64,000 nucleotides of DNA from Phormidium tanganyikae FI6-MK23 (GTDB taxonomy: Bacteria; Cyanobacteriota; Cyanobacteriia; Leptolyngbyales; Leptolyngbyaceae), in NCBI GenBank assembly GCA_019359175.1, contig JAHHHU010000012.1, positions 108,597 through 172,596 of the forward strand, written 5' to 3'. The notes beneath the pieces were generated by a model. It was given only the letters and a program-made list of their open reading frames with translations, was not told where the DNA came from and did no database searches. How positions within the stretch are numbered: the stretch's first letter is position 1; the number at the start of each line of letters is the position of its first letter. Below, in pieces: positions 13,539 through 20,793 of the stretch. Position numbers and translations under genes: made by a program.

Positions 13539-14864
13539 ATGACGACTCGTGTAATTCTCGTGCGCCACGGTGAAAGCAGCTACAACGTTGAAAAAAGAGC
13601 GCAAGGGCATTGTGATCTCTCGACGCTGACCGAGAAGGGTGAAAAGATGGCAACCCAAGTTGCAACGGCCCTAAAAGATTTGAAATTTGATGCGGTCTAC
13701 AGCAGTCCGCTACAACGCGCAAACCGTACCGCTGAACTGATTTTGGCAGGTCTAGATCATCCGCCCGCCCCTCAAATCACCGATGATCTCAAAGAAATTA
13801 ACATTCAGCCTTGGGAAGGAATGCTGTTCACGGAAGTCGCTGAGAAATACCCAGAAATGTATGCTCACTGGCATTCCGAGCCGCATAAAGTGAGCATGAC
13901 GCTCCCCGATGGCAGTGAACTTGTCCCTGTGCTGGATTTGTATCAACAGGCGGAACGATTTTGGCGATCGATCCTGCCCCAACATCCAGATCAAACGATC
14001 CTGATTGTCGCGCACAGCGGCATTAATCGCGCTTTGATCAATACTGCGATCGGACTTGAACCCGCTGATTATCAACGCTTCCACATTTCCAACTGTGGCA
14101 TCAGCGTGCTGAATTTCTCCGGCAGTTTTGGCGAACAGGTGCAAATCGAATCGCTGAACGTGACATCACATCTGGGCGAAACGATTCCCAAACTCAGACC
14201 CAATCATAAAGGCGCTCGTCTCTTACTCGTGCGACACGGCGAAACGGAATGGAATCGTCAGGGACGGTTTCAGGGTCAAATCGATGTGCCGCTGAATGAC
14301 AATGGACGAGTGCAAGCAGGTCAAGCCGCAGAATTTCTAAAGTCGGTACAAATCGATACAGCCATCAGTAGCTCGATGGCGCGTCCAAAAGAAACCGCAG
14401 AGATCATTCTCAAATATCATTCTGAAATTGAACTAAAACTGCGCGATGACTTACGCGAAATCAGTCACGGACTTTGGGAAGGCAAATTTGAATCTGAGAT
14501 CGAAGCCGACTATCCTGGTTTGCTGCATCAGTGGCAAAAACATCCTGAGACGGTGCAAATGCCAGAAGGTGAGAATCTACAGCAAGTTTGGGATCGTGCC
14601 GTTGCAGGTTGGAGTGCGATCGTCGAATCGGCTCAACCTGGAGAAACGATTCTCGTCGTCGCTCACGATGCCATTAACAAAGCGATTCTTTGTTACGTTT
14701 CCGGTTTGACTCCCGCTGCTTTCTGGAGCTTCAAACAAGGAAATGGCGCGGTGAGCGTGATTGATTACCCGAATGGAGCCGATGCAACTCCCTTACTGAT
14801 GGCGATGAATATCACAACGCATTTGGGGGGCGTTTTGGACAAAACTGCAGCAGGCGCACTTTAG
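13539..14864 (+). CDS. Tandem two-domain histidine phosphatase (phosphoglycerate mutase-like)
   Basis: A 441-residue protein with two consecutive histidine-phosphatase domains. Domain 1 (about residues 1-215) opens VILVRHGESSYNVEKRAQG, with the RHG phospho-acceptor, SSPLQRANRTA and IVAHSGINRAL. Domain 2 (about 225-430) repeats this as LLLVRHGETEWNRQGRFQG, SSSMARPKETA and VVAHDAINKAIL. Both keep RHG, the following Arg and the late His, so both could be active. Cyanobacterial proteins of this layout are variously annotated as phosphoglycerate mutase, alpha-ribazole phosphatase or phosphoserine phosphatase; the sequence alone does not decide. It starts after a 156-bp gap divergent from the CPBP gene. 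Confidence 0.9.
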   Translation: MTTRVILVRHGESSYNVEKRAQGHCDLSTLTEKGEKMATQVATALKDLKFDAVYSSPLQRANRTAELILAGLDHPPAPQITDDLKEINIQPWEGMLFTEVAEKYPEMYAHWHSEPHKVSMTLPDGSELVPVLDLYQQAERFWRSILPQHPDQTILIVAHSGINRALINTAIGLEPADYQRFHISNCGISVLNFSGSFGEQVQIESLNVTSHLGETIPKLRPNHKGARLLLVRHGETEWNRQGRFQGQIDVPLNDNGRVQAGQAAEFLKSVQIDTAISSSMARPKETAEIILKYHSEIELKLRDDLREISHGLWEGKFESEIEADYPGLLHQWQKHPETVQMPEGENLQQVWDRAVAGWSAIVESAQPGETILVVAHDAINKAILCYVSGLTPAAFWSFKQGNGAVSVIDYPNGADATPLLMAMNITTHLGGVLDKTAAGAL

Positions 14865-15986: not shown

Positions 15987-17687
15987 CTAGCAGCCCTCTA
16001 GAGGAATTTCAATCACAAACTCTGTACCTTGCCCAAGTTCAGAACTGCAAGAGAGCAATCCCCCATGTCGCTCAGTCACAATCTGATAGCTAATCGCAAG
16101 TCCCATTCCTGTTCCAACCCCCACAGGCTTAGTGGTGAAAAAAGGATCAAAAATACGCTTTGCTGTTTCCTCAGCCATTCCAATTCCGGTATCTGCAACG
16201 CGAATCCTCACCGAGTTTGAGTCCGTAAGCTCAGTCACGATCGTAAGCCTCAGCGGGTTGGTGCTGTCTTGCTGAAAAGCTTCTTCGATCGCGTCGATCG
16301 CATTTGCAAATAGATTCATCAACACCTGATTGAGTTGTCCCGCATAGCATTCCACTAAGGGAAGCTTTCCATATTGTTTGACAACCTCGATCGCGGGACG
16401 TTGATTATCTGCTCTAAGACGATGCTGCAAAATCATCAGCGTACTTTCAATCCCAAAATGCAGATCGACTTCCTTAGAATCAGATTCATCCAATCGCGAG
16501 AAGATGCGGAGTGATAGCACAATGTCCCGAATCCGTTCTGCGCCAGTTTGCATCGAAGCCAGTAGCTTTGGCAGATCGCTGATCAGAAAATCGAACTCGA
16601 TCGCATCAATTTCAGCTTGTAGCGTCGGTGCAGGATGGGGATAGTGCTGCTGATAAAGGTTGATGATGTGCAGCAAGTCCCGAATGTGGTCTTGGGCAGG
16701 ACTGAGATTGCTATAGATAAAGCTAACCGGATTGTTAATTTCATGCGCGACTCCTGCAACCAATTGACCCAAAGACGACATTTTTTCGCTTTGAATTAAC
16801 TGAGTCTGTGCCTGTTTTAGATTGTAGAGCGCTTGCTCAAGCGACTCTGTTTTCTGTTGAAGTTGTTCTTCAGCTTGCTTGCGCTCCGTAATATCGTCAT
16901 ACGTGCCCAAAATTCCGATCACGTTGCCTTGATCATCCCGCAGCGGAATTTTGCTAGTATCTGCCCAAGTTTGCTTACCGTCTGCCTGAAGTAGCGTTTC
17001 AATAATGTGCATTTGTGGAATTCCATGACTCACGACTTCAGCATCACAAGCTCGAAACCACTCAGTTTCTTCGGGTGTCCAAGGCAAATCATAATCTGTT
17101 TTACCTACAATCTCGCTCGGATCACTCAGTCCCGCAACAGTAGCAAATGATCTATTACAGCCTAAGTAAACTGAATTTATATCTTTCCAGAACACCAGTT
17201 GGGGCGTGTTGTTGATCACAATTTGTAGAAGCTGCTCGGACTCTTGACGGTCTTGCTGCGATCTCTGTTGTTCTGCCTGTAGACAAACTCGTTCGGTGAT
17301 GTCGTTTTGAATGCCGATAATCTGTACGACTCGTCCCGCAGAATCAAAAATCGGTGAGAGTGTTAACTCATTCCAAAATAAAGTGCCGTCTTTGCGATAG
17401 TTTCGTAGTGTGACTGTACAGCTTTTCTGCGATCGTAAAGCTTGCTGCATCTGTTGAATCGCAGGCTGATCGCGATCGTCTCCCTGCAAAAACCGGAAAT
17501 TCTTTCCCATCACTTCAGCAGCCGTGTATCCTGTCGATCGCTCAAACACCGGATTGACATAAATAGCAGGAAAATCAGGTTGTTGAGCATCAGCGATCAC
17601 AATTCCGACAGGGCTTGCCGCAATCGCTTGCTGCCAATTGATAGAAGCCAAAATCGTAGAGTGCTGAGAAGCGACCGAAGTATCCAT
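15987..17687 (-). CDS. PAS (LOV-like) - PAS sensor histidine kinase
   Basis: About 566 residues, soluble, with no membrane helix. In the track's numbering, residues 25-138 form a PAS domain with striking LOV character: [24 protein letters not shown] and GIQNDITER keep the flavin-contacting Asn, Gln and Asn residues, but the photoactive Cys of NCRFLQ is Phe69. A second PAS (about 150-280) and a coiled coil lead to the histidine box [16 protein letters not shown] and an HATPase domain with N-, G1- ([11 protein letters not shown]) and G2-boxes (GTGMGLAI). No receiver domain is attached and no response regulator is adjacent. The track's start is TTG; the ATG at 17687 is preferred, although neither has a clear ribosome-binding site. 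Confidence 0.88.
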
Positions 17688-17874
17688 GAGAAGAAGCGTC
17701 AATAGAGTTGTATCAATTCTTCCCTGAAGTGAAGAATTAGAACGTCAAAACCTTGAAACGACAAGATGCCTAGAAGCTAATCCCGCGCTCAATTAGAAAG
17801 CAATCCTTGAGGAGAGGATTGAATCCGCGTCTGATCGCTACAATGGAATCTGTCTTCATTCCTCGATCGATATT

Positions 17875-20793
17875 TTGAGCGCTACTCATTCCCCCAAAAT
17901 TGTCCTCGTAGACGGTCACTCTCTGGCATTCCGCGCTTATTTTGCTTTTGCAAAGGGTCGCGATGGTGGCTTACGCACTTCCACTGGAATCCCCACCAGC
18001 GTTTCCTACGGCTTTCTCAAAGCACTACTCGAAACCGTCGAAGCGGAAAAACCGGATTATTTAGCGATCGCGTTCGATCTGGGCGGGGCAACCTATCGCC
18101 ACGATGCCGACGAAACTTATAAAGCGGGTCGCCCTGAAACCCCCGAAGATTTCATGCCGGATCTAGAAAATCTTCAGGAAGTTTTGAAGGCGATGAATTT
18201 ACCAATCGTCATTTCCAAAGGATATGAAGCAGATGATGTGATCGGGACGATGGCGCGAAGGGCAAGCCAGGAAGGATTCAGCGTCAAAATTTTGAGCGGC
18301 GATCGTGATTTGTTCCAGTTGGTTGATGCCGATGGAAAAATCAAGGTGCTGTATATGAGTACAACCTACGGCAAAGGTGCGCCGCCGCCAAAAGAATTTG
18401 GAGTAGAGCAAGTAAAAGAAAAGCTTGGTGTGCTGCCGTCTCAAGTGGTAGATTACAAAGCGCTCTGTGGCGATCCGTCCGATAACATCCCCGGTGTCAA
18501 AGGCATCGGCGAGAAAACAGCAGTTCAGTTGCTTACGACTTACGGATCATTAGAGAATGTTTATCAATCGATCGAGGAAATCAAAGGCGCAGTCAAAAAG
18601 AAATTAGAAACTGGACTCGAAGATGCACGTCATTCGCAGTGGATGGCACAGATCCATCTAGACGTGCCGTTAGATGTTGATCTGGAGACTTGCAAACTTC
18701 AAGGATTCAATGAGGAAGCACTAAAGCCATTGATCGAGCGATTAGAATTCAAATCGTTCTACAACAAAATTCAGAAATGGAAACAGCAACTCAGCGGTGA
18801 AAGTGATACAGAACTGACCGAAACCGAAGGGTCAAAGCAAGCGGAGATCGAAGCTCCAATGATTCCGCAGTATGCCGATGATGATCTGTGGTTCTTTAGT
18901 GCGGAAGAAACCGAGAGTTCTGAGAAATTTGAACCCGTGTCGATCGCGCCTCAAATCATTGATACTCAAGCGAAACTTGATGCACTGATCAAGCGTCTCA
19001 AAACACACACAAATGATAAATCGCCCGTTGCTTGGGACACCGAGACGACTGATCTCGATCCGATCAAAGCAGACCTAGTTGGAATCGGTTGCTGTTGGGG
19101 TTCAGAATCCGATGAGATCGCTTACATTCCCGTTGGACATACATCAGGCACGAACCTCGATCGGTCGATCGTTCTCGAAGCCCTCCGCCCGATCCTCGAA
19201 GATGTCAAATATCCGAAAGCATTTCAAAACGCAAAGTTCGATCGCTTAGTGTTCCGTTTCCAAGGGATTGATGTAGTAGGCGTTGTCTTCGATACGATGT
19301 TAGCGAGCTATATTCTCAATCCTGAAGCAAGCCATAAACTCAGCGATCTGAGCTACCGCTACTTAGGAATTCATGCCCAAGAGTACGTAGACCTTGTTCC
19401 CAAAGGTAAGCACATTGGTGAAGTAACCATTCCTGCGGTTGCGAACTACTGCGGCATGGATGTGTATGGCACATTTAGCTTAGTGCCAAAACTGCGATCG
19501 GAGCTTCAAGAACTTCCAAAACTCTACAAGCTGTTCATCGACATCGAACAGCCGCTTGAACCTGTTTTAGCCGAGATGGAAGCAACAGGCGTGAGAATCG
19601 ATCGACAGTATCTAGAAGAATTCTCGAAAAAGCTGAAAGAAGATCTCGATCGAATCGAGCTAGAAGCTTACGAAGCCGCAGGAGAAAAGTTCAGTCTCGG
19701 ATCGCCGAAACAATTGAGTGAATTGTTATTTGAGAAGCTAGGACTCGATCGAAAGAAATCCCGCAAGATCAAAACTGGCTATTCAACGGATGCCGCTACC
19801 TTAGAGAAACTTCAAGGGGATCATCCGGTCGTAGATGCGATCGTCGAACATCGAACCTTGACCAAACTCAAGTCAACCTACGTTGATGCATTGCCCACTC
19901 TGATCAATCCAAAGACCGATCGCGTTCACACCGACTTCAATCAAGCGGTCACCTCAACAGGTCGCCTCTCTTCTTCCAATCCCAACCTACAAAACATCCC
20001 AATTCGGACTGCCTTCAGCCGCCAAATCCGCAAAGCCTTCATTCCCGAAGATGGTTGGCTGATGGTCGCTGCCGACTATTCCCAAATCGAACTGCGAATC
20101 CTAGCCCACCTGAGCCAAGAACCCGTCTTACTCGAAACCTACCGCAATAACGAAGATGTCCACTCTCTCACCGCCCGATTGCTCATGGAGAAAGAAGATA
20201 TCTCCTCCGAAGAACGACGACTCGGCAAGATCATTAACTTCGGCGTGATCTACGGCATGGGCGCACAGCGATTCGCGCGAGAGGCGGGAGTTCCATCAGC
20301 TCAAGCCCGCACCTTTATCGATCGATTTAACAGTCGCTATCCCCTCGTATTCGAGTATCTCCAGCAGATGCAGCGAGAAGCGATCGCCAATGGCTATGTC
20401 GAAACGATCGAGGGACGACGACGCTACTTCAATTTCTCATCAGATTCGGTGCGAAGGCTCCGAGGCACATCACCCGACCAGATTCAACTCGATAAGCTGA
20501 AGTTGCGCGATCAGTTTGAGGCGGGAGCACTCCGAGCCGCAGCAAACGCGCCGATTCAAGGTTCCAGCGCAGACATCATCAAGATTGCAATGGCACAGTT
20601 GCACGAGGTCTTGAGAGCTTACCCTGCTCGATTGTTGCTGCAAGTGCATGATGAATTGGTATTCGAGGTCGAACCCGATGCGTGGGAAGAGTTGCAGCCT
20701 AAGATCAAGCGAGTCATGGAGAATGCTGTTTCTTTGAGTGTGCCGTTAATGGTAGACATTCGAGCCGGAAACAACTGGATGGAAACTAAATAA
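17875..20793 (+). CDS. polA: DNA polymerase I
   Basis: A 972-residue family A polymerase for lagging-strand maturation and repair. Residues 1-290 form the 5'-3' exonuclease/flap domain (KIVLVDGHSLAFRAYFA, KGYEADDVIGT, GDPSDNIPGVKGIGEKTA). About 350-545 is a 3'-5' exonuclease domain with intact Exo I (AWDTETTD), Exo II (FQNAKFDRL) and Exo III (YCGMDVYGT) residues, so proofreading is likely. The C-terminal polymerase has motif A (AADYSQIELRILAH), motif B (RRLGKIINFGVIYG) and motif C (LLQVHDELVFEV). The start is TTG; no in-frame ATG lies upstream, and the first residues of the domain follow at once. The start region is preceded by a 7-bp hairpin (CAATCCT/AGGATTG at 17801-17821). An MntA/HepT pair follows after 17 bases. 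Confidence 0.96.
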   Translation: MSATHSPKIVLVDGHSLAFRAYFAFAKGRDGGLRTSTGIPTSVSYGFLKALLETVEAEKPDYLAIAFDLGGATYRHDADETYKAGRPETPEDFMPDLENLQEVLKAMNLPIVISKGYEADDVIGTMARRASQEGFSVKILSGDRDLFQLVDADGKIKVLYMSTTYGKGAPPPKEFGVEQVKEKLGVLPSQVVDYKALCGDPSDNIPGVKGIGEKTAVQLLTTYGSLENVYQSIEEIKGAVKKKLETGLEDARHSQWMAQIHLDVPLDVDLETCKLQGFNEEALKPLIERLEFKSFYNKIQKWKQQLSGESDTELTETEGSKQAEIEAPMIPQYADDDLWFFSAEETESSEKFEPVSIAPQIIDTQAKLDALIKRLKTHTNDKSPVAWDTETTDLDPIKADLVGIGCCWGSESDEIAYIPVGHTSGTNLDRSIVLEALRPILEDVKYPKAFQNAKFDRLVFRFQGIDVVGVVFDTMLASYILNPEASHKLSDLSYRYLGIHAQEYVDLVPKGKHIGEVTIPAVANYCGMDVYGTFSLVPKLRSELQELPKLYKLFIDIEQPLEPVLAEMEATGVRIDRQYLEEFSKKLKEDLDRIELEAYEAAGEKFSLGSPKQLSELLFEKLGLDRKKSRKIKTGYSTDAATLEKLQGDHPVVDAIVEHRTLTKLKSTYVDALPTLINPKTDRVHTDFNQAVTSTGRLSSSNPNLQNIPIRTAFSRQIRKAFIPEDGWLMVAADYSQIELRILAHLSQEPVLLETYRNNEDVHSLTARLLMEKEDISSEERRLGKIINFGVIYGMGAQRFAREAGVPSAQARTFIDRFNSRYPLVFEYLQQMQREAIANGYVETIEGRRRYFNFSSDSVRRLRGTSPDQIQLDKLKLRDQFEAGALRAAANAPIQGSSADIIKIAMAQLHEVLRAYPARLLLQVHDELVFEVEPDAWEELQPKIKRVMENAVSLSVPLMVDIRAGNNWMETK

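Follow-up and report, generated by a model that had tools for sequence, protein, structure and literature searches.

The first domain of a sensor histidine kinase encoded in the 64,000-nucleotide stretch analysed here (the window) carries Phe64 at the site of the adduct-forming cysteine of LOV photoreceptors, and a cysteinyl adduct cannot form there. Our best explanation, to which we give an even chance on the strength of the sequence, is that the domain is a natural Cys-less LOV (LOV*), in which FMN or riboflavin would still be bound by a pocket remodelled for Phe64 and signalling would proceed by redox or radical chemistry. New here are the Phe replacement with its co-varying pocket, syntenic Cys-bearing orthologues with a reciprocal Trp change, and a genus-wide split in LOV type. 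The kinase and its surroundings comprise the following features.

15987..17687, minus strand: sensor histidine kinase, 566 aa from the ATG at 17687 (571 aa if the start is the TTG at 17702)
17286..17624, minus strand: LOV-like PAS domain, residues 22-134 (Pfam PAS_9 at 26-132, YtvA-family model, AF2 model, PDB fold matches)
16875..17213, minus strand: second PAS (PAS_4), residues 159-271 (Pfam)
15996..16772, minus strand: histidine kinase core, with His315 in VAHEINNP and HATPase_c at 451-564 (Pfam and sequence)
17875..20793, plus strand: polA-like gene, the divergently transcribed neighbour of the kinase (context, outside the system)

The domain order of the protein is thus LOV, PAS_4 and histidine kinase (Pfam), in an open frame that is unbroken and with intact kinase motifs. 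The phosphoacceptor His315 and the HATPase_c domain (E 2.6e-23) identify a sensor histidine kinase; the HisKA match is weak (E 7.7e-4, below the Pfam cut-off). Elsewhere in the window, a 441-aa ORF at 13539-14864 contains a tandem pair of phosphoglycerate-mutase-like motifs (LVRHGE), as read by eye.

An earlier note on this DNA had described the first PAS as LOV-like without the photoactive Cys, and alignment, structure model and family searches all bear this out. The motifs it listed (20 protein letters, not shown here, and GIQND) are found in order on the minus-strand ORF. Best PDB sequence matches of the domain are short-LOV and other LOV proteins, with E down to 2.8e-35 (phmmer), and since the phmmer alignment with the PDB short-LOV proteins is gap-free around the motif, residue 64 pairs with the LOV Cys. 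The alignment with LOV domains that the note had proposed as a check therefore upholds its replacement of Cys by Phe; the site it gave stands, and its number depends on the start codon, the ATG at 17687 yielding Phe64 and the TTG at 17702 alone giving Phe69. AF2 predicts a LOV fold with a pLDDT of 90.3, and the best PDB fold matches are LOV proteins. Accordingly, the domain has the LOV/PAS fold of a canonical LOV photoreceptor and lacks the adduct-forming Cys in NCRFLQ, with Phe64 instead. Binding of FAD in the manner of NifL or Aer was considered and rejected: in the FAD-PAS redox sensors NifL, Aer and MmoS an F-alpha Trp marks FAD binding (PMC10468136), and the F-alpha helix of the window domain (75-85) has no Trp. 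Against the YtvA family NCBIfam NF052652, the domain scores 150 bits, below the cut-off of 250, and the 243-position model is matched over 3-130 only, a partial match that is expected because the LOV domain sits on another protein.

To locate the pocket, AsLOV2 was projected onto the domain, using a reference sequence verified by the positions of C450, N482, N492 and Q513, and a list of contact residues from general background. The alignment places these four residues at Phe64, Asn96, Asn106 and Gln127, respectively, and the relevant positions are as follows, all assigned by alignment.

17565..17567, minus strand: Ala41, at AsLOV2 I427 (also PMC10751770)
17496..17498, minus strand: Phe64, codon TTC, at the adduct-forming Cys site (AsLOV2 C450)
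17445..17447, minus strand: Gln81, replacing a phosphate Arg (AsLOV2 R467)
17400..17402, minus strand: Asn96, first flavin Asn (AsLOV2 N482)
17373..17375, minus strand: Trp105 in FWN, equivalent of iLOV W467
17370..17372, minus strand: Asn106, second flavin Asn (AsLOV2 N492)
17319..17321, minus strand: Ile123, at AsLOV2 F509
17307..17309, minus strand: Gln127, signalling Gln (AsLOV2 Q513)

Yee et al. (PMC4682037) define LOV* in YtvA numbering by G59, N61, R63, F64, L65, Q66, N94, N104 and Q123, with Cys62 replaced. The window domain keeps all nine residues, with the Cys62 equivalent replaced, and the likeness of the motif is thus not due to chance. Three further changes had escaped the earlier note, namely Gln81 at R467, and Ala41 and Ile123 where AsLOV2 has the otherwise bulky I427 and F509. 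Of the two phosphate arginines of FMN LOVs (AsLOV2 R451 and R467), R65 is kept and the second is Gln81, a site with Arg in 71, Lys in 3 and Gln in 2 of 77 Cys-LOVs. The position of another arginine, from PpSB1, is occupied by Ile77. In the 33 columns conserved to at least 90% among the 77 Cys-LOVs, the window domain deviates only once (R81Q), and 73% of the Cys-LOVs show as many such deviations or more. As this count is ordinary, a decay of the domain lacks support, and simple decay appears unlikely.

The changes around Phe64 co-vary. Ala41 is present in 4 of 5 Phe-type rows and in none of the 97 other LOV rows (Fisher p 1e-6, 102 rows), and residue 123 is non-aromatic in 3 of 5 Phe rows vs 2 of 97 others (Fisher p 6e-4, 102 rows), with both p values ignoring kinship: the counts do not represent independent events, as four of these five Phe rows are related to one another. 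In all 77 Cys-bearing rows position 123 is aromatic. I427 of AsLOV2 touches the Cys sulphur (PMC10751770), hence Ala41 would make room for Phe64. Taken together, the pocket looks remodelled rather than decayed.

Relatives with the same replacement are few. A pattern search of 390 cyanobacterial genomes gave 16 matches, among which the LOV domains are the window domain, L121 (= L002), L119, L129 and L132 only, the others having no LOV match; a search for more relatives in 36 genomes from the G233 family and the 2 from the G071 family yielded no further member. L129 (= L039), from Oculatellaceae cyanobacterium Prado106, is a Phe-LOV that is 30% diverged from the window domain, with a different architecture that lacks PAS_4; its retention of the same nine residues, Ala41 and Ile123 argues for the LOV* assignment. 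L002 in the window's own genome (G000:C30:1662-2000) and L119 in the congener G006 are paralogues of LOV-kinase type that combine Phe with Ala41, and in both the second flavin Asn is lost, with Val in its place (VWVEL); judging from this, these two have probably given up flavin binding. L132 (G071:C1:2531567), from another cyanobacterial family, is LOV-like and likewise has Phe instead of the Cys; its first flavin Asn is replaced by Ser, and Met occupies the F509 position.

Whole-kinase orthologues that adjoin polA in the same divergent arrangement are present in two congeners, G005 and G007 (L157:6001-7704 and L158:5528-7231), with 76 and 74% identity. Both possess Cys64 (codons TGT and TGC), Thr41 and Cys105, reading FCNEL; the FWN Trp is thus missing from these two, and is kept in all the others of the 102 LOV rows. 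Thr at position 427 accelerates adduct decay in AsLOV2 (PMC10751770), so by analogy these orthologues may be fast-reverting photoreceptors. The remaining five congeners gave no comparable full-length match to the window kinase; upstream of polA no similar ORF was seen in G006, G001 and G004, and G003 has an ORF there without an assignment.

Which state came first bears on the history, and is compatible with each of the functional readings. In a tree of 102 LOV-domain rows with the Cys column omitted, the window domain, L129, the orthologues (L135/L136) and L119/L121 cluster with an SH-aLRT of 90, in a group whose inner branching order the tree does not fix, and the tree as a whole requires no fewer than 11 changes between Cys and non-Cys. 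We tentatively entertain, at rather less than an even chance, that Phe64 came first in this small clade and that G005 and G007 regained their Cys. All members of the group except the two orthologues have Phe, and the latter also carry the Thr41 and the loss of Trp105 described above. Against this, loss and regain were weighed by parsimony reasoning only, which leaves the two level or favours one by a single step, depending on the branching in the group, and Cys-bearing outgroups enter it once the kinase core is included; in that combined tree, with few usable outgroups, the Phe-bearing rows are split.

Turning to function, the domain may be free of flavin, with Phe64 filling the space above the isoalloxazine site of what would be an apo, structural or dimerisation PAS, or one that accommodates another small ligand. 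We hold this to be a real possibility, yet a doubtful one. The bulk of Phe speaks for it, as this residue greatly exceeds Cys, Ala, Ser and Pro in size and is expected to sit beside flavin C4a, and so does R81Q, with the loss of one phosphate Arg. Ile77 at the PpSB1 arginine position also counts against the LOV* reading, and in the literature searched, we found no measured case of Phe at the adduct-Cys site. The paralogues L002 and L119 furthermore demonstrate a lineage able to abandon the flavin site, and hence that a pocket with both Phe64 and Ala41 can be one that is probably without flavin. On the other hand, all polar signature contacts to flavin are kept in the window domain and in the 30% diverged L129, where they would be needless without flavin, and contacts are indeed lost in those relatives that have probably abandoned flavin.

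Alternatively, a photoreceptor may have been broken recently, with one transversion from TGC to TTC removing the Cys and the domain now drifting, as could be suggested by the Cys of the syntenic orthologues and by codons that are one base apart. We find this improbable: the domain deviates no more than is usual at conserved LOV columns, Ala41 and Ile123 have changed as well and both are common to L129, the frame is open with intact kinase motifs, and identity to G005 is 72% in the LOV part and 79% in the kinase core, without a sharp excess of change. A sequencing or assembly error is hardly credible, as although a single T for G would suffice and the assembly consists of 77 contigs, the pocket changes within the domain are correlated and the same Phe recurs in other genomes (L129, L119 and L132).

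We also surveyed the genus by a profile search of eight genomes, with matches read by sequence, and the counts cover the loci read. The three LOV domains of the window's own genome (G000) have Phe, Phe and Ser, and no canonical Cys-bearing LOV was found there or in G001, G002, G003, G004 and G006 among the loci read. These six genomes all contain Ser LOV-type domains, with Phe types restricted to G000 (two) and G006 (one), while G005 and G007 have three Cys-bearing LOV domains each and neither the Ser nor the Phe type. The genus hence divides, among the loci read, into species with only Cys-less (six of eight genomes) and only Cys-bearing LOV domains (two). All eight genomes also contain more remote flavin-PAS-like domains in which the Cys site is Pro (TPRILQG and similar). 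Separately, a Rubrobacter MAG has one locus (L107) with two LOV-like domains, the adduct site being Cys in one and Pro in the other.

The Ser-LOV group comprises L003 (G000:C76:139705-140043), L139, L140, L142, L143, L145, L146 and L154, with the motif NSRLLQG and the flavin signature otherwise kept, except for Leu or Ile in place of Phe at position 66. It is present in eight genomes from two genera of the family, including G009 and G025 beyond the genus, and two further genera (G011 and G014) have versions with Gly (L144 and L147). The group is probably a Cys-less lineage that is conserved more widely than that of the window.

Returning to the LOV* reading, flavin binding despite Phe64 is the step most in doubt, and from the sequence we consider it only somewhat favoured; given a bound flavin, signalling through its reduction is slightly more probable again. 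Both steps, raised in the earlier note, have indirect support in the kept signature, the ordinary deviation count, the small residues around Phe and Trp105; the note's alternative, that light sensing has been lost, may also hold. Reduction of the flavin would produce the neutral semiquinone. It could come from cellular reductants, in which case the domain would be a redox sensor, or could be driven by light, the electron then being supplied by Trp105 or a neighbouring Tyr; the equivalent W467 is an electron donor in the Cys-less iLOV-Q489D (PMC5645311). Protonation of N5 would then reorient Gln127, and the signal could pass via the I-beta strand and the coiled-coil linker to PAS_4 and the histidine kinase, altering its net kinase or phosphatase activity. 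There is precedent in Yee et al., where Cys-less VVD, YF1 and the natural BAT-LOV* respond through flavin reduction, and neutral-semiquinone signalling without Cys is demonstrated in VVD and YF1 (PMC4682037).

The Cys-less window kinase may consequently respond to redox state, or else to light but with no chemical bond of the usual kind. More speculatively, and with little probability as a whole, a small cyanobacterial clade may have given up adduct photochemistry and turned to redox or radical sensing with a flavin pocket that is packed by Phe and forms no adduct (Cys to Phe, with Ile to Ala at the contacting position), and the G005/G007 branch may have regained the Cys and lost the electron-donating Trp. 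If true, a single syntenic locus would have switched in nature between two chemistries of signalling. Yee et al. (PMC4682037) raise the questions of whether redox flavoproteins gave rise to LOV photoreceptors, and of whether LOVs without the Cys signal in nature. One syntenic kinase with and without the Cys in close relatives, which also differ reciprocally at the contacting Ile and the donor Trp, makes possible a direct comparison of two natural proteins that are about 75% identical.

Natural Cys-less LOVs have been known since 2015, when about 70 were published with several replacements (Yee et al., PMC4682037), and in a 2023 analysis the Cys is present in only 57% of a large LOV cluster and missing in about 43% (PMC10468136). 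Our literature search returned no paper describing Phe at the adduct-Cys site; Yee et al. name Ala, His and Pro among the replacements, and Phe may be among their approximately 70. BAT-LOV* of the halobacterial bacterio-opsin activator and other natural Cys-less LOV-like domains resemble the window domain in keeping the nine residues with the Cys replaced (PMC4682037). BAT-LOV* however has Pro, compared to Phe with Ala41 and Ile123 here, and is fused to receiver, GAF and HTH domains rather than to PAS_4 and a histidine kinase. The C62A form of YF1 (YtvA LOV) and iLOV similarly have a Cys-less LOV core, with Trp at the iLOV W467 site, yet theirs is an engineered small replacement of the Cys, whereas the window has a natural Phe with changed neighbours. 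A redox mode may be common to the window domain and the FAD-PAS sensors NifL, Aer and MmoS, from which it differs in the F-alpha Trp. The top fold matches, the short LOV proteins PpSB2-LOV (7a6p) and PF5-LOV (7r5n), have the same fold and LOV motifs, but possess the photoactive Cys and form adducts. Finally, the Mrub_1259 LOV histidine kinase (9vf7) is a close fold match across the LOV domain and flanking helices (TM 0.92 to the target) and 36% identical to the window domain, in a comparison of fold and sequence identity.
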